Notes under the pieces: generated by a model
The model's input: only the letters and a program-made list of their open reading frames with translations
Told to the model about the DNA's origin: nothing
Databases searched by the model: none
Shown here: positions 801-31,336 of the stretch, one piece after another
Numbering within the stretch: the first letter of the stretch is position 1
How the letters are laid out: every line of letters begins with the position of its first letter
Assembly (NCBI GenBank): GCA_028819565.1
Contig: JAPPLD010000020.1
Coordinates: 1 to 32,098 of the forward strand
Source: Gammaproteobacteria bacterium
Lineage (GTDB): Bacteria; Pseudomonadota; Gammaproteobacteria; Poriferisulfidales; Poriferisulfidaceae
Direction of reading: 5' to 3'
DNA: 32,098 bases
Program-made: the position numbers and the translations under genes

Positions 801-3800
801 TCAAAGGTATCCATCAACTGCTTCCTGTTGCTCCCGTTTTTTCGCTTTTTGCTCTCGCTTTAGCATGATTTGTGCCCCTCGTTTGCCTATGGAGACGATA
901 CGTGGGTCAATATCATTGAGTAACGTTTCAAAAGCATGGCGCCATTCCGCCCACATATCACTATCGTTACCCGCCCAAACCCAGCCCAGGCTCTGAGTCG
1001 CTTCTGCAACTTGGTCGATTGTATAGCCGGCGTCAAGTGCCAGCATAGCTTTTTTTGCCCACTCGTCATTTGGCTTCCCAGCAAGGGGAGTTAGATGTAG
1101 ATTTGCAAGTTCTGTAGACGCTAGGAGTTCACGATAAAGATCAAGTGAGTTCCCAACTAAAGCGCCGAGAATTTCTTGGATGCTATGAGATTCTATGTCA
1201 GTAGAAATCGTCCTTAGCACTTTTCGTCGCTGTTCTTCATTGAGGGTTTTCGCTACTTTCTTTGCTGCTTCTTCCCTGTCGCATCCGTAGAAAGGTTTTT
1301 CATTCTGAACTAGCCGAGTCATCCACGCAGTAGCCAATTCGCTTTCGTGCTTCAAAATTTCCCCAATCCAATAATCGTCGTGTTGGGAAAACTCAGTCTG
1401 GGCATCAGCGGACCGAAGAATTGCAATACTCCACATCTCTTTCAAAGGACCATCTACACATTTTTCGGTAGACATCCAATGGCCTGTGGCAGCTGCAACT
1501 GCCACATGCGCGTGTTCTGCCGAGAACATCTCAAATAGTGTACTTTCTGGAACTTCTTCGCGGAGACAGTGAGTTTCAATGAGTTGCCCCATGCCTTCAG
1601 CTTTGGCAATCGAAGCAGTGAGAATTTCTGGGGGTGTATGAAGATGGGTAATTGCAACAGAGATGCCAACTGATACATATAATTCGTTATCCAAGCAGTC
1701 GTTAACAATTGACCATGAACGTGGTTCGCTCGACACTGCTTTACTTACGAACGGTTTTACTAAATCAAAGGGAAGTTCGTGTCCCATAAAAGCTTTTGCT
1801 ACAGCAATAGGGCTAGAGCATCTTTCGGCGAGTATTTCGCAAAATTTTGGGGATTCGCGGGGATAATTGATTTCTGCTGCTCGTGCTTTGGCTTCAACGT
1901 CAGTCATGAGATTCGCAATCTTTCCTGCAGATAAGCCTTTCCAATTTTCAGCAAGGTCATTAAGGGCATGATTGTATGAGGCTTGATCAGAATCAAAGCC
2001 CTCAAAATGGCGTTGATCCGGATAAAGACACTCAAAAATTGGGTCCTGATGTACAGACAATTCAAAATCAATCCAATTTGCCAACTCTTTAAGTTTGCGC
2101 TGGACCCCTGGAAGTTTGCACGAAATATCTGCCAGATCGTTTACTGCGTATTGTGCAAATCGGTCGGTTGCAGCCTTAAGGTCATCATGGGCAGCCCACC
2201 TCGGGTTAGAGATGCTTCTTAAGAGTTGAAACAATTCATCCCATGGTATTTCTTCAGACCGTCTTATGACACCTGCGACCAAAGGCCAAGATGCAGTCAA
2301 TTTGTCGATGATCTTTGGAGGTAGGACTTTATCTGTCAGTATCATCTGTAGCTCATTACCAGGGTCAAACCTTTGGGTGTGGTAGGCGGGGTTGAGCGCA
2401 ATGCACATGGCCGAGATGGCAACGTGCGAATTTTGTGATCTTTCCCACCATTTTTGTGCATGTTGGAGCAAGGCTACACGTCTTTGTAGAGATCTTTCCA
2501 TGTTAGAAAAGTCTTCTTCTATCCAGGGTTTTAACTTGTCCAAGATAGGGTTTTCATTTTGTCCCCAGTAGAAACTTGGCTGACCTTGTCTGTTTACAGC
2601 CTCTTCCAGCAACTTGGGGATTACCCTATCCGGGGCATGCAAGAGAGCAGGCCGACAAATTTCTACAAGCAGTTCCGGATGCCGATCAAGCACGTAATTC
2701 ACTTCTGATTGCCCTTGGAATGCATATTTCTCCCAAAGGCGAGGAGTACCGAATTTCTCCAGCAAGTGCTCAATGTCGAGAATAGATGCGTCACCTGAGC
2801 GTGCATCGATCAGTATTTCAAGGGCATCCTTCGGATTGCAAACAATAGGCAAGAAATCCTTAATAGGTAAAGAACCAGCTCCGTTATAAAAACCGCGCCG
2901 CACTAATGGCCCCCGTATTTCTGGTGGTTCAACAGATAGTGGGCAACCGGATTCCGGTGAAGAATTTTCTGGTCTTTCAAAGATAATCCCTGAAGCTGCT
3001 AATTTTGCCAATTCACGCGTAACAGTCATGACTGATTCATTTAAGATTTCTGCAACATCACTCGGCTTTACGCCTGCATTTCCACCTAATGCGAAAGGGG
3101 CCAACCGGAGTGTAGAGTCATCACCAAGCACTTTATTGAGGCTCGGCGCAAGTTGGTCCATTAATCCTTGGCCATGTACTACGCTTTTGACATCTCCGAC
3201 GAGGCATAAGTGAGCGAGTGTTACCGCTAGACCTGGCAAGCCAACTGCCTGTTTCCGAATAAGCCGGAGCAATCTATCTGGTCCCAAAACCCCTGTGGAC
3301 TTAATAATTTCAATCATGGTGTCCGCGTCAATTCGGTCGAGTTTCCGCGGGTCTTTACTGCTAATCCGTAGCGCAGCACAGACAGCAGAAGTTTCTCCCG
3401 GCCAGCACGTCGCAATGATTCGAAATTCAGCCCGTACCTCATCTCGAAGTTGAACAAGATTCTCAATCCATTCACTACGAACATGCGCATCGTCCACGAT
3501 AATTGCTGGAGGGTTGAAGCTGTAAAGATCTTTGGCTATTTGTGCTCGGTCCAGATCGACCATGAATCGAGCTTTGCCTTGAAGGGTTAGTGCTCGTAGA
3601 AGGAAGGTTTTTCCAGACCCTGGTTCTCCTGCGAGCACACAATCACCCCGGCTATCGTCTAAGAGCCATTGCATGTCATGTTTTCTGCCAAACACCCTAG
3701 TCTCGAAAATAGGTCTTCTTGTAAGGGGAAACACACTTAAAGCATGTGGTTTCCCAGTCACTCCAAGTAAACGCTTACACCAGTCTGGTTCGCGGTAGAG

Positions 3801-4397
3801 TTGGAGTGCGAACCAATCTTGATCGTAGGTTTGCATGAGCGTTACGTTTCTTTGGCGCGCTGCCTCGTATAGTTTTTTTCGAGTGGCGGGTGTAATACGC
3901 CGTGATGTTGCAAATAGTAGACGTCGAGACTTCCATTCCTGTTTGCAGGCCCGATTCAGATTTTTATTGAAATTCTGCGTTAGGTTTTGGCTAGTCGTTA
4001 TGATCAGAGGGAAAGGTTCTTCTGAAGTTCTATCGGCAACGGCTCCGTCAAAGCCATCATCTCCCCCGCCACGAACGGGTACCAGCCTTGGCCACATGAC
4101 TTTTAACAAGTCTGTCGCACATGCCTCAAAGATTTCTGGATCTAGTTTTTCATTTAATCCTTCTAGAATTGCCCGGTGATGCGAATCAAGTATCAAACTA
4201 GAAGTTCTTTTAATCGGATCCCCTGAAGGAAACTCTTCGGCAACCTTCTTTACACGATCAACCATTGCCGAAGAAATTTTTATTTCGCCTCTTTCCCATC
4301 GGGCAACCGTATTAGGTTCAACCCCGACAGCTTGGGCGAGTGCCTTCTGAGTCATGTGCAAACGCTCCCGAAGCGCCTTGATTTCAGTATTTTTCAT
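801..4397 (-). CDS. XRE helix-turn-helix / nuclease-like / STAND P-loop NTPase, predicted defence protein
   Basis: This is a 1198-residue multidomain protein. Residues 1-55 form an XRE/Cro helix-turn-helix (MTQKALAQAVGVEPNTVARWERG). Residues ~85-210 resemble a restriction-endonuclease fold: FEACATDLL helix, then GGGDDGFDG with a candidate catalytic D117, then the strand LIITTS. The expected (E/Q)xK is not obvious, so activity is uncertain. Residues ~235-420 are a STAND-type NTPase with Walker A GEPGSGKT (257-264), Walker B-like IIVDDAH (299-305) and a strand ending IIATCWPGE. Residues ~430-480 look like a winged helix. The remaining ~700 residues are mostly helical with no repeat I can name, and probably form the sensor. 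Such effector-NTPase-sensor layouts are typical of Avs/NLR-like antiphage proteins; the role here is inferred. The gene is markedly AT-richer than the chromosome to its right, suggesting transfer. Confidence 0.75.
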   Translation of the reverse strand: MKNTEIKALRERLHMTQKALAQAVGVEPNTVARWERGEIKISSAMVDRVKKVAEEFPSGDPIKRTSSLILDSHHRAILEGLNEKLDPEIFEACATDLLKVMWPRLVPVRGGGDDGFDGAVADRTSEEPFPLIITTSQNLTQNFNKNLNRACKQEWKSRRLLFATSRRITPATRKKLYEAARQRNVTLMQTYDQDWFALQLYREPDWCKRLLGVTGKPHALSVFPLTRRPIFETRVFGRKHDMQWLLDDSRGDCVLAGEPGSGKTFLLRALTLQGKARFMVDLDRAQIAKDLYSFNPPAIIVDDAHVRSEWIENLVQLRDEVRAEFRIIATCWPGETSAVCAALRISSKDPRKLDRIDADTMIEIIKSTGVLGPDRLLRLIRKQAVGLPGLAVTLAHLCLVGDVKSVVHGQGLMDQLAPSLNKVLGDDSTLRLAPFALGGNAGVKPSDVAEILNESVMTVTRELAKLAASGIIFERPENSSPESGCPLSVEPPEIRGPLVRRGFYNGAGSLPIKDFLPIVCNPKDALEILIDARSGDASILDIEHLLEKFGTPRLWEKYAFQGQSEVNYVLDRHPELLVEICRPALLHAPDRVIPKLLEEAVNRQGQPSFYWGQNENPILDKLKPWIEEDFSNMERSLQRRVALLQHAQKWWERSQNSHVAISAMCIALNPAYHTQRFDPGNELQMILTDKVLPPKIIDKLTASWPLVAGVIRRSEEIPWDELFQLLRSISNPRWAAHDDLKAATDRFAQYAVNDLADISCKLPGVQRKLKELANWIDFELSVHQDPIFECLYPDQRHFEGFDSDQASYNHALNDLAENWKGLSAGKIANLMTDVEAKARAAEINYPRESPKFCEILAERCSSPIAVAKAFMGHELPFDLVKPFVSKAVSSEPRSWSIVNDCLDNELYVSVGISVAITHLHTPPEILTASIAKAEGMGQLIETHCLREEVPESTLFEMFSAEHAHVAVAAATGHWMSTEKCVDGPLKEMWSIAILRSADAQTEFSQHDDYWIGEILKHESELATAWMTRLVQNEKPFYGCDREEAAKKVAKTLNEEQRRKVLRTISTDIESHSIQEILGALVGNSLDLYRELLASTELANLHLTPLAGKPNDEWAKKAMLALDAGYTIDQVAEATQSLGWVWAGNDSDMWAEWRHAFETLLNDIDPRIVSIGKRGAQIMLKREQKAKKREQQEAVDGYL

Positions 4398-4891: not shown

Positions 4892-4938
4892 AGGTTCGTC
4901 AGATGCCCGTATGGTTAAATCTGGAAAGAATTCGAGAC

Positions 4939-5202
4939 ATGGAACTTGCAATCCGCGAAGCAAAAGCGCGCCTTTCCGAACTTGTCAGTGCCGCCCAGAG
5001 CGGGGAGCGTGTCGTCATCATGAAATATGGCGAGCCGGTTGTTGAACTGGTTCGTTGCCAAGGACGTGGCGGCATTGACTTCGAAAAACTAGAAGCGGCC
5101 CGAAAACGTCTTGGAATCTCAGGAAACAGGGAAGAATGGCTCCAAGCATTCGACGATCCGAAATTCAGCCGTCAAGTGCTGGGACTTGAAGACGACGACT
5201 AG
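4939..5202 (+). CDS. Phd/YefM-family antitoxin
   Basis: This protein of about 87 residues begins MELAIREAKARLSELV and continues SGERVVIMKYGEPVVELV. That is the N-terminal DNA-binding and dimerisation fold of prevent-host-death (Phd/YefM) antitoxins. The acidic C-terminal tail, with WLQAFDDP and an EDDD end, is the part expected to wrap and neutralise the toxin. The frame is also open from an ATG at 4903. I prefer 4939 because it has a GGAAAG ribosome binding site 10 bases upstream, because the promoter would leave no leader for 4903, and because family homology begins there. The PIN-domain toxin starts 8 bases after its stop, so the two are surely co-transcribed. Family members usually repress their own operon. 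Confidence 0.85.
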   Translation: MELAIREAKARLSELVSAAQSGERVVIMKYGEPVVELVRCQGRGGIDFEKLEAARKRLGISGNREEWLQAFDDPKFSRQVLGLEDDD

Positions 5203-5210
5203 GGGGACCG

Positions 5211-5630
5211 GTGCCGGCGCGCATCCTTCTTGACACTTCCTATCTGTATGGGTTGATGGAGGCTCCTGGGAAGCTTTCTTCAGCAGAGCAGGATTTTTTG
5301 TCTGACCAGAGCGTTCGGCTCTACGTCAGTGCGGTGTCAATCTGGGAGATGCGGCTTAAATATCATGCCCGTACCCCATCGGGCAAACGGAAGAGCCCTT
5401 TTGACCCACACAATGTCGTGGCAATGCTTGAAGAACAGGGCGTGATTTTTCTACCGATGACGGGGACCCATGCTGCACGGGAGCTTGAAACTCCAATCAG
5501 CCATCGAGACCCGTTTGACGAACTCCTTTTAGTTCAGGCTCAGGAAGAAGGTCTTAGGTTGCTTACCGCTGACCGGGAATTAAGCAACCATCCGCTTGCT
5601 GTTACGGTGCAGGATTTGCCGGATCAATAA
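5211..5630 (+). CDS. VapC-like PIN-domain toxin
   Basis: This 139-residue protein has the PIN ribonuclease layout. An N-terminal LLDTSYL carries the first acidic residue (D8), VSAVSIWEM carries the conserved Ser and Glu, and HRDPFDELLLVQA plus LLTADREL carry the remaining metal-binding acids. All the expected acidic positions seem present, so the nuclease is probably active. PIN toxins usually cut tRNA or rRNA and are neutralised by the partner antitoxin. The start is GTG, preceded by the purine-rich ribosome binding site AGGGGGA (5201-5207) immediately after the antitoxin stop. Pairing a Phd-type antitoxin with a PIN toxin is common. The target RNA cannot be predicted. Confidence 0.87.
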   Translation: MPARILLDTSYLYGLMEAPGKLSSAEQDFLSDQSVRLYVSAVSIWEMRLKYHARTPSGKRKSPFDPHNVVAMLEEQGVIFLPMTGTHAARELETPISHRDPFDELLLVQAQEEGLRLLTADRELSNHPLAVTVQDLPDQ

Positions 5631-7899: not shown

Positions 7900-7907
7900 G
7901 TATATTA
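7900..7907. repeat. Left copy of an 8-bp direct repeat flanking the TnpB element
   Basis: GTATATTA occurs here and again at 9264-9271, immediately outside the inverted-repeat ends of the TnpB element. The match extends to GTATATTAGG if the first bases of the left end are counted. It looks like a target-site duplication. Removing the element and one copy restores a compact divergent promoter region between the esterase and lptM. Confidence 0.6.
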
Positions 7908-7932
7908 GGGAATGTAGCAAAATCTGCAAAGG
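7908..7932 (+). repeat. Left terminal inverted repeat of the TnpB element
   Basis: It reads inward GGGAATGTAGCAAAATCTGC followed by AAAGG. It matches the reverse complement of 9236-9263 apart from a 3-base insertion and a few substitutions. A TATAAT (7933-7938) follows directly and ends six bases before the tnpB ATG. Confidence 0.6.
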
Positions 7933-7944
7933 TATAATCCTGAA

Positions 7945-9258
7945 ATGAAAGCCCACCGCACCGTCCGCTACCGCCTGCATCCGGGTTCTGCACGCAAGAA
8001 CCGGCAACTGCACGGCACCGCCGGGGCCTGCCGATTCGTCTGGAATCACATGGTTGGGAAGCTCAGGGACGAGTACGAATTTGGAATCAAGCCGGATTTC
8101 CGGCATTATTCCCTGTGCAACGTGTTTACCATCATGCGGAGAGATGATGGCAACACGAAATGGTTGCAGGATTATCCGTCCAAGGTGGTCAGACTCTCTC
8201 TCCAGCCCATCGAGACGGCTTACAGGGAATTCTTCAAGGACCGCGGGACCGGCGGGAAACTGAACCGTCAACTTCCGAAGTTCCACGGCAAGTGGACGAC
8301 CACGCTTTCGTTCCCGGTAGACTATCAATCGGCAAAGATGGCAGGGGAAAGCCTGTATGTGCAGAAGGTCGGCTGGATGAAGCTGGTCGGCACCAACCCG
8401 CACCCGGACGGTGAGTTCAAGTCCGGCACGGTCAAATGCGAATGCGGCAACTGGTACGCCTACCTGGTGCACGAAGTGGACGCGCAAGTCAGCCTTCCCC
8501 ATTCCATCAAGGAAGTGGGCGTCGATCGCAACATCACCGAGGGTCGGCTGGCCGTGCTGTCGGACGGGACCAAGCATGGTGGACCGGATCTGGAGAAGAA
8601 AGTGGCTAAACGCAAACGGTACGAGCGGTCCATGGCGCGCAAGCGCGAGGTCTGGTCGAAGAATCAGAAGAATCTCTGCGGGCCGAAGCTCCAGGGCAAG
8701 TCGCGCTATCAACCCTCCAACCGGTATCTGCGGGTCCAAATCAGGCACCAACGGGCTTGCGCGGCGGAACGTTTCGCACGGAAGAACTGGGGGCACCACG
8801 TCAGCAAGGCCATCGCATCCGAATACGATGTCGCCTACGTGGAAAAGCTGAATATCCGGGGCATGACGAAATCGGCTAGGGGCACGAAAGAGAATCCCGG
8901 CAGGCACGTGAAATCGAAATCCGGCCTGAACCGTCAGATACTGGCCAGCGCATGGGGCACGCTGGAGCTGTGCTTGAACTACAAGTTGGAAGTGCGCCAT
9001 GTCAATCCTGCGTACAGCAGCCAGACCTGCCACCAGTGCGGGCATGTCGACAAGGACAGCAGGAAACGAACGGACTTCAAGTGCACCGCTTGCGGGCACG
9101 CGGACGATGCGGATGTGAACGCCGCATTGAATATCTTGGCCTTCGGGAATGGGGCTGCTGGACGTGGAGGCGGCGACACCGGCGGGGCACCCTGCCACAG
9201 TCGGCCTGGGAAGCGTCAAGAAATGGGCAAAGAATCCCTTGCGGATTTTGCTACATAA
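7945..9258 (+). CDS. tnpB: TnpB RNA-guided nuclease (IS605 OrfB family)
   Basis: This is a 437-residue TnpB. It has the N-terminal helix-turn-helix-like start (TVRYRLHP, ACRFVWNH) and a RuvC nuclease domain. The catalytic acids all seem present: Asp in VGVDRNI, Glu in VEKLNIRGM and Asp in DDADVNAALNI. The zinc finger is CHQC...CTAC. TnpB is an RNA-guided endonuclease whose guide RNA comes from the element's right end. The first motif is GVDRN rather than the usual G-I/V-D-x-G. The stop codon lies inside the right inverted repeat, so any guide-RNA scaffold must overlap the last ~150 coding bases. The ATG is 6 bases after a TATAAT, so the transcript may be leaderless or read through from outside. 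No TnpA is present. Confidence 0.93.
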   Translation: MKAHRTVRYRLHPGSARKNRQLHGTAGACRFVWNHMVGKLRDEYEFGIKPDFRHYSLCNVFTIMRRDDGNTKWLQDYPSKVVRLSLQPIETAYREFFKDRGTGGKLNRQLPKFHGKWTTTLSFPVDYQSAKMAGESLYVQKVGWMKLVGTNPHPDGEFKSGTVKCECGNWYAYLVHEVDAQVSLPHSIKEVGVDRNITEGRLAVLSDGTKHGGPDLEKKVAKRKRYERSMARKREVWSKNQKNLCGPKLQGKSRYQPSNRYLRVQIRHQRACAAERFARKNWGHHVSKAIASEYDVAYVEKLNIRGMTKSARGTKENPGRHVKSKSGLNRQILASAWGTLELCLNYKLEVRHVNPAYSSQTCHQCGHVDKDSRKRTDFKCTACGHADDADVNAALNILAFGNGAAGRGGGDTGGAPCHSRPGKRQEMGKESLADFAT

Positions 9259-9263
9259 TTCCC
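9236..9263 (-). repeat. Right terminal inverted repeat of the TnpB element
   Basis: On the plus strand it begins CCCTTGCGGATTTTGCTACA and ends ATTCCC, mirroring the left end. It includes the last codons and the TAA stop of tnpB. The direct repeat GTATATTA follows directly at 9264-9271. Confidence 0.6.
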
Positions 9264-9271
9264 GTATATTA
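9264..9271. repeat. Right copy of the 8-bp direct repeat flanking the TnpB element
   Basis: This GTATATTA matches 7900-7907. It is followed by the lptM leader, so it marks the junction with host sequence. If the element behaves like an IS605-type TnpB, bases beginning near here would form the guide of its RNA. Confidence 0.6.
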
Positions 9272-30832: not shown

Positions 30833-31336
30833 TTATCTTTTCTTCTTCGCTGTCCTGCGCTTGGCGGCCTTCTTTTTGGCCGTCTTGCGTTTGGCGACTT
30901 TCTTTTTCGCGGTCTTCCGCTTTACAACTTTCTTTTTCGCCGCCTTGCGCGGTGCAGCCTTCTTTTTGGCCGTCTTGCGCTTCGCGACCTTTTTCTTTGC
31001 GGTCTTCCGCTTCACGGCTTTCTTCTTGGCAACCTTCTTTTTCGCGGCCTTACGTTTCACGGCTTTCTTCTTCGTCGTCCTGCGCGGTGCTGCTTTCTTC
31101 TTGGCGGTCTTGCGCTTCGCGACCTTCTTCTTCGCGGTTTTCCGCTTTACGGCTTTCTTCTTGGCAACTTTTTTCTTTGCCGTCTTGCGTTTAGTGACTT
31201 TCTTTTTGGCCACTTTCCGCTTGGCGGCTCTTGCCGGGGCTTTTTTCTTTGCTACTTTCCGTTTGGGGGCGCGTTTCGCACTGGCCTTTTTCTTCGCTGT
31301 GCTGCGCTTTTTCTTCGTTGAACGTTTGACAGCCAC
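30833..31336 (-). CDS. Lysine/alanine-rich histone H1-like DNA-binding protein
   Basis: This 167-residue protein is made almost entirely of Lys, Ala, Arg, Val and Thr. A ten-residue pattern (K-R-K-T-A-K-K-K-V-A and variants) runs through most of it. It resembles the H1-like tail domains of bacterial AlgP/Hc1-type proteins, which bind DNA non-specifically and help compact the nucleoid. There is no folded domain. One 30-residue block (56-85) recurs identically at 101-130, with many silent base differences between the copies. The GTG start has GGAGG upstream. A 61-base inverted repeat lies in its leader. It sits between the 6S RNA and ilvA. A role in alginate control should not be inferred. Confidence 0.8.
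   Translation of the reverse strand: MAVKRSTKKKRSTAKKKASAKRAPKRKVAKKKAPARAAKRKVAKKKVTKRKTAKKKVAKKKAVKRKTAKKKVAKRKTAKKKAAPRRTTKKKAVKRKAAKKKVAKKKAVKRKTAKKKVAKRKTAKKKAAPRKAAKKKVVKRKTAKKKVAKRKTAKKKAAKRRTAKKKR

Follow-up and report, generated by a model that had tools for sequence, protein, structure and literature searches.

The window analysed in this study is the whole 32,098-nt stretch of contig JAPPLD010000020.1, which belongs to a 1.8-Mb genome (G000). The element under study, at 7908-9263, is an intact tnpB gene lying between terminal inverted repeats (TIRs). TnpB is an RNA-guided DNA cutter and the ancestor of Cas12. The left TIR (7908..7929, + strand), an IS1595-type end of type 'A', reads GGGAATGTAGCAAAATCTGCAA and is 3 nt shorter than the type consensus GGGAATTATGTAGCAAAATCYGCAA; this deletion is the sole irregularity of the element. 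The right TIR (9239..9263, - strand) is 25 bp long and its reverse complement is GGGAATTATGTAGCAAAATCCGCAA. The two TIRs match without a gap over 21 nt at 90% and reach the tips with one 3-nt gap. The 8-bp sequence GTATATTA stands in perfect form directly outside both, at 7900..7907 and 9264..9271, and is identified as a target-site duplication by sequence and by its single copy at the empty site of four sister species. The tnpB gene (7945..9258, + strand) encodes 437 amino acids, is assigned to the RNA-guided endonuclease family by domain profiles and by RuvC and zinc-ribbon motifs, and has its stop codon within the right TIR. A putative omega-RNA core, TTGGCCTTC...GAAGCGTCAA, overlaps its 3' end (9136..9219, + strand) according to the predicted fold and synonymous conservation. 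The segment from this core to the right TIR (9220..9238, + strand) may form a 3' stem-loop together with the TIR, which is suggestive only.

The observation of a tnpB gene with inverted ends and an 8-bp duplication was confirmed. The original prediction had placed the mirrored ends at 7908-7932 and 9236-9263, which is essentially right, and had described the 8-bp direct repeat just outside them, which is exactly as it said. The window scored 23 in a combined scan for TIRs and 8-bp repeats, compared with 12 at most for flank-reversed nulls. The inverted ends are not due to chance, because G000 contains eight occurrences of the end core GTAGCAAAATCNGCAA and none of a reversed control pattern.

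Complete DDE transposons with the same ends were found in G000 and in one sister species, among five sister genomes of the same genus (G001-G005). The one in G000 (C2:12089-14768) is an IS1595-family element whose two 26-bp ends are identical to each other and are shared with the window element, from the right TIR of which they differ by one C/T difference. Its duplication is GGCCATTT, its transposase matches PF12762 (E=1e-46) and NF033547 (E=3e-59), that is, an IS1595-family DDE transposase, and its cargo is a fusion of a DNA methyltransferase with an HNH domain. The partner in the sister species (G001:C3:50194-53248) is 3.05 kb long, has ends as in the window and is flanked by the duplication TCTTGTTA. 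The insertion sequence family of the ends was assigned via the transposases of these partner elements. Seven intact IS1595 elements of the genus were inspected, and every one had GGG-type TIRs and perfect 8-bp repeats. When ends were compared, no sequence was seen to be shared between the tnpB unit and the full IS1595 element beyond the ~25-bp TIR. Since the unit encodes TnpB alone and the transposase sits in the partner element, the window unit is a derivative apparently moved by IS1595 and not an autonomous member of that family. Methyltransferase cargo in IS1595 elements of the genus was seen at L009:3255-4454 (G000:C2) and also at L088 and L098; in G000, an N6/N4 methylase domain and a C-terminal HNH endonuclease domain form a single polypeptide.

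Further copies of tnpB with window-type ends are present in G000 as well as in three of the sister species. Perfect 8-bp duplications flank seven tnpB elements, namely those of the window (GTATATTA), C24, C2, C31, C16, G002:C2 and, in a genome of another family (G200), G200:C95. With window-type ends, the duplication is ATGCGTTT at C24:13601 and CAATATAC (GTATATTG on the other strand) at G002:C2, both perfect. Matches at 7/8 positions were seen at several other tnpB elements, among which G002:C19 and G003:C19 have window-type ends. The joined flanks of three insertions (window, C24 and C31:103k) were searched in the five sister genomes, and at each of the three loci four of the five had an uninterrupted site with 80-94% identity. 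At the window site all four sister species read ...GTATATTAGGCG..., with one GTATATTA. The C31:103k site has a single repeat in all four, in one of them with one base changed, and the C24 site has a single ATGCGTT(T) in the four. Thus the findings that the original prediction had named as support (a complete DDE transposon with these ends, further copies, and empty sites with one GTATATTA) were all obtained, and those that it had named as refutation, homologues with other borders or empty sites without duplication, were not seen. As shown by these genome comparisons, the tnpB unit was inserted at several sites with an 8-bp duplication. Because several insertions each have their own duplication and the TIRs lie at the borders, the composite, once formed, moved as a unit. 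We consider it highly probable, at roughly 90%, that the window element is a non-autonomous unit composed of tnpB and its guide-RNA region between IS1595 TIRs, which is moved by a DDE transposase in trans. At 7900-7907, GTATATTA lies just upstream of a small open reading frame and a lysA-like gene and is conserved in the four sister species. Because GTATATTA resembles a promoter -10 region, the insertion may have disturbed that promoter.

The same TnpB clade as that of the window is also found between at least two other IS1595-type end sets. At C2:123.8k in G000, the ends are GGGACTTATAAAGGAAAGTTGACA / GGGAACTATAAAGGAAAGTTGGCA and the duplication is ATCCGATG. Homology between this copy and the window begins at the start codon and ends after GTCAAGAAAT; the ends of the two copies differ, and each pair matches. 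Because the homology is limited to this interval, the cassette appears to be common to both and the ends to have been swapped. A copy in G001 has a third end set, GGGAATTATGTAGATAACTTGACAG (type F), with a duplication matching at 7/8 positions, and a full IS1595 element in G002 has closely similar ends, GGGAATTATGTAGGTAACTTGGCAG. IS1595-like ends, GGGATTTATATACGTGACTCCC, also flank a second TnpB lineage of 43% identity, with the duplication GTATTGGA (C31), and a further tnpB group (C22, C26, C6) has decayed ends in the style of IS1595-like ends. A third lineage has the ends GGCGCTTC...GTGTGGAAT and the duplication ACTACTAA (C16), and its ends also border a complete ISL3-family element in G003 (PF01610, E=2e-66; duplication TCCAAAAC). 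Since one cassette lies between different IS1595 end sets and other lineages lie between further IS1595 or ISL3 sets, tnpB seems to have been captured repeatedly by resident DDE transposons. The phenomenon thus extends further than the original prediction supposed, to several end types and two DDE families. The ISL3-type TnpB ends (GGCGCTTC...) were seen at many contig tips (C2, C4, C6, C12, C15 and C16 in G000; C8, C26 and C30 in G001); the assembly is therefore probably broken at this repeat, and fewer copies are counted than exist.

The tnpB core from the start codon to GTCAAGAAAT, being common to copies with different ends, implies that tnpB must once have been placed between IS1595 ends. 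This would be explained by one insertion of a conventional IS200/IS605 tnpB element, through the single-strand Y1 pathway, into a small derivative of IS1595, a miniature inverted-repeat transposable element (MITE); the resulting composite would then only resemble a DDE unit. However, there are several sites, each with its own 8-bp duplication and with TIRs at the borders, and past the ~25-bp TIR nothing was seen in common with the full IS1595 element. Moreover, no Y1_Tnp was found in G000-G005 or G200 (seven genomes), whereas the same search was positive in five control genomes. The multiple duplications and the empty sites refute a single Y1 insertion into a MITE as a full account, and we regard it as very improbable; it survives as a possible origin of the first capture.

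Outside the genus, the nearest TnpB among 369 genomes of the class is 50% identical and lies in G200. Its copy at G200:C95 has the ends GGGAATTATATACTTAATGCCCC and the duplication ATGAGAAT (ATTCTCAT on the opposite strand), and the copy at G200:C46 has a different IS1595-style end set. G200 also has a ~204-bp miniature derivative of a tnpB unit (L168:1463-1666, G200:C16) whose ends, GGGAATTATAAGGGAGAGTTGACAAA, are of IS1595 type and whose 8-bp duplication, TTATTTTG, is perfect. In the scan for TIRs and 8-bp repeats, 17 of the 21 TnpB loci of the genus and G200 were above the top null score (12), whereas most full-length TnpBs tested elsewhere in the class scored like the null, only L127 (17) and L140/L206 (the same locus, 13) being above it. 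The pattern of TIRs with a duplication is thus a property of particular lineages, not of TnpBs generally, because scores above the null are almost confined to the genus and G200. The GCTG-rich surroundings of the L127 tnpB (G251:C38) contain a directly repeated 8-bp sequence, TCCTGCTG, and a weak inverted repeat, both of which may be chance. Among named GTDB contigs there were six close loci, in one Candidatus Porisulfidus metagenome-assembled genome (MAG) and two gammaproteobacterial MAGs, and one distant locus; no canonical IS605 homologue was found in that search. Plasmids had distant TnpBs only, with ~33% identity at best among the matches listed, and viral contigs had three distant TnpB loci, none with TIRs above the null.

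These comparisons bear on the idea that we are dealing with an IS200/IS605-type element whose sub-terminal palindromes or guide-RNA structure only look like inverted ends, with 8-bp repeats flanking them through coincidence. In its favour, a 3' stem-loop close to the end of the transposon is normal in guide-RNA scaffolds of TnpB (PMC10278001), and the sequence here can be drawn as a hairpin. Against it, complete DDE elements have identical ends, the repeat is present in one copy at the empty sites, and the scan places most full-length TnpBs from outside the genus and G200 at the level of the null. Coincidental palindromes are refuted by the shared ends together with the empty sites, and their probability is next to nil. 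Mobilisation in trans by DDE transposases, as the original prediction proposed for this tnpB cargo, is well supported by the genomic comparisons, since ends are shared with complete elements, duplications and empty sites are present, Y1 was not found, and the arrangement recurs across end sets. At the level of sequence, the shared ends, the 8-bp duplications, the empty sites, several independent insertions and a resident partner element are shown. That the IS1595 transposase of G000 is the actual mover, and by which chemistry it acts, is inferred.

The window TnpB has the Pfam domains HTH_OrfB_IS605 and Cas12f1-like_TNB and matches NCBIfam guided_TnpB (E=9e-52), and it retains the RuvC motifs DRN / EKLN / DADVN and the zinc-ribbon cysteines. 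None of the 12 tnpB copies compared has an internal stop. Their ratios of nonsynonymous to synonymous substitution (dN/dS) are 0.14-0.25 against the window copy, with a median of 0.18 over all pairs, which indicates purifying selection on tnpB. Nearly all copies keep the RuvC and zinc-ribbon motifs, a few having a substitution in or beside a motif. Where the window and G200 copies agree in a residue, they also agree in its codon in 81% of cases in the tnpB 3' end vs 40% elsewhere (p=0.002), where the boundary of the 3' end was picked after viewing the alignment. The predicted fold of this region is strong and consistent, with a negligible covariation term. An Rfam search gave no match. The predicted fold and the extra synonymous constraint are as expected if a guide RNA that overlaps the end of tnpB has been retained.

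We dropped the hairpin between the pre-TIR segment and the TIR as evidence of covariation; most right ends are singly non-significant against shuffles. Some ends of IS1595 elements without tnpB also form such a hairpin. With a better-defined arm, the tnpB right ends are collectively enriched in hairpins (Fisher p=1e-4, 12 related ends; controls p=0.83). Because these 12 ends are not independent, the TIR stem-loop stays suggestive.

It is conceivable that the DDE transposase moves the unit in trans while TnpB is a mere passenger without a role in its spread. IS1595 elements of the genus carry other cargo too, namely DNA methyltransferases, and no motif resembling a transposon-associated motif (TAM) was seen at the insertion sites. 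On the other hand, the purifying selection, the motifs kept in nearly all copies, the synonymous constraint over the guide-RNA region and the repeated pairing of distinct TnpB lineages with distinct end sets all speak against an idle passenger. We consider a passenger without such a role to be on the unlikely side.

In the process that we favour, a DDE transposase from a full IS1595 element elsewhere in the cell probably recognises the shared 25-bp ends and inserts the tnpB unit at a new site, duplicating 8 bp. With less certainty, TnpB may still be an active RNA-guided nuclease, whose guide RNA may run from the tnpB 3' end through the TIR into the flank. TnpB would then cut the vacated or empty sister site, and repair would copy the element back, giving a cut-and-paste unit both retention and spread. 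Cutting of the vacated or empty site with copy-back has been proposed for ISDra2 TnpB (PMC8612924). We suggest tentatively, with chances somewhat below even, that the tnpB-omegaRNA cassette is a bolt-on retention module of bacterial DDE transposons (IS1595, ISL3), in which the guide RNA absorbed the TIR into its scaffold and the nuclease, still reading the flank, re-homes the transposon, in parallel with Fanzor1.

Several points weigh against DDE-driven movement of a tnpB unit or against this role of TnpB. The duplication is lost or the ends are decayed in some copies (C15, C24:47091 and G003:C89). The window copy itself may be immobile because its left end lost 3 nt. Extension of the guide RNA through the TIR is only suggested, by stem-loops with the TIR as the 3' arm. 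In the left flanks upstream of the insertions, at sites too few for a formal test, no TAM-like motif was apparent by eye, so that the proposed role of TnpB is unproven.

Elsewhere in the window, a 1198-amino-acid protein with an N-terminal helix-turn-helix and a P-loop nucleoside triphosphatase motif (GEPGSGKT) is encoded at 801-4397 (- strand); it is possibly defence-related or of the type of signal transduction ATPases with numerous domains (STAND). Adjoining small genes at 4903-5630 (+ strand) resemble a Phd-type antitoxin and a PIN-domain (VapC-like) toxin. A 167-amino-acid lysine/alanine-rich repetitive protein encoded at 30833-31336 (- strand) resembles bacterial histone H1-like proteins.

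It is assumed that TnpB co-evolved with the transposases of IS605 and IS607, and in the model proposed for its function the target motif of the transposase doubles as the TAM. Bacterial TnpBs inside DDE elements, which have 8-bp duplications and no evident shared target motif, make this assumption directly testable, and a few small genomes provide the cognate autonomous partners, the end swaps and the empty sites. The original prediction regarded the combination as not known to be described. For prokaryotes this stands, as no report of bacterial tnpB in IS1595 or ISL3 elements was found in the open-access full-text literature, subscription papers and ISfinder not being covered; eukaryotic Fanzor1, however, is a precedent (PMC3627910, PMC10711439). 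What is provisionally new here is the bacterial TnpB as cargo of trans-mobilised DDE units, in sponge-symbiont bacteria.

Cargo is known in the IS1595 family. The window unit resembles IS1595 elements with passenger genes in having its partner's ends, the 8-bp duplication and dependence on a DDE transposase, but its cargo is an RNA-guided nuclease and it lacks a transposase of its own. Likewise, one further TnpB group agrees with a complete ISL3 element (G003) in its ends and 8-bp duplication, but its tnpB unit lacks an ISL3 transposase. Mobilisation in trans is also known from MITEs (e.g. PMC3119063), which likewise have only the TIR and duplication length in common with a partner element; they are non-coding, whereas the window unit encodes a full-length protein under selection. 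Prokaryotic TnpB was assigned to IS200/605 or IS607 in 2013 (PMC3627910), and in a haloarchaeal genome study IS605-type elements are described as having neither TIRs nor duplications (PMC3119063). The tnpB-only elements of IS200/IS605 (IS1341-type) share with the window unit a TnpB family protein and a guide RNA expected over the tnpB 3' end, but they depend on Y1 and have neither TIRs nor duplications, whereas the window unit has both and Y1 was not found. Fanzor1 is found in eukaryotes and their viruses and belongs to a different TnpB clade, whereas here bacterial TnpBs lie between IS1595/ISL3 ends; its TIR and duplication are reported to be part of the scaffold of the right-end element RNA (reRNA) (PMC10711439), which for the TIR of the bacterial units is only suggested. 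In both cases, however, a TnpB-type nuclease is cargo between DDE TIRs with target duplications. Several DDE superfamilies have captured Fanzor1 genes (PMC3627910), and these can make up non-autonomous, Fanzor-only units with TIRs and duplications (PMC10711439), as the tnpB units do with several transposon families. The capture of tnpB offers a bacterial counterpart to the step by which Fanzor entered eukaryotic DDE transposons.
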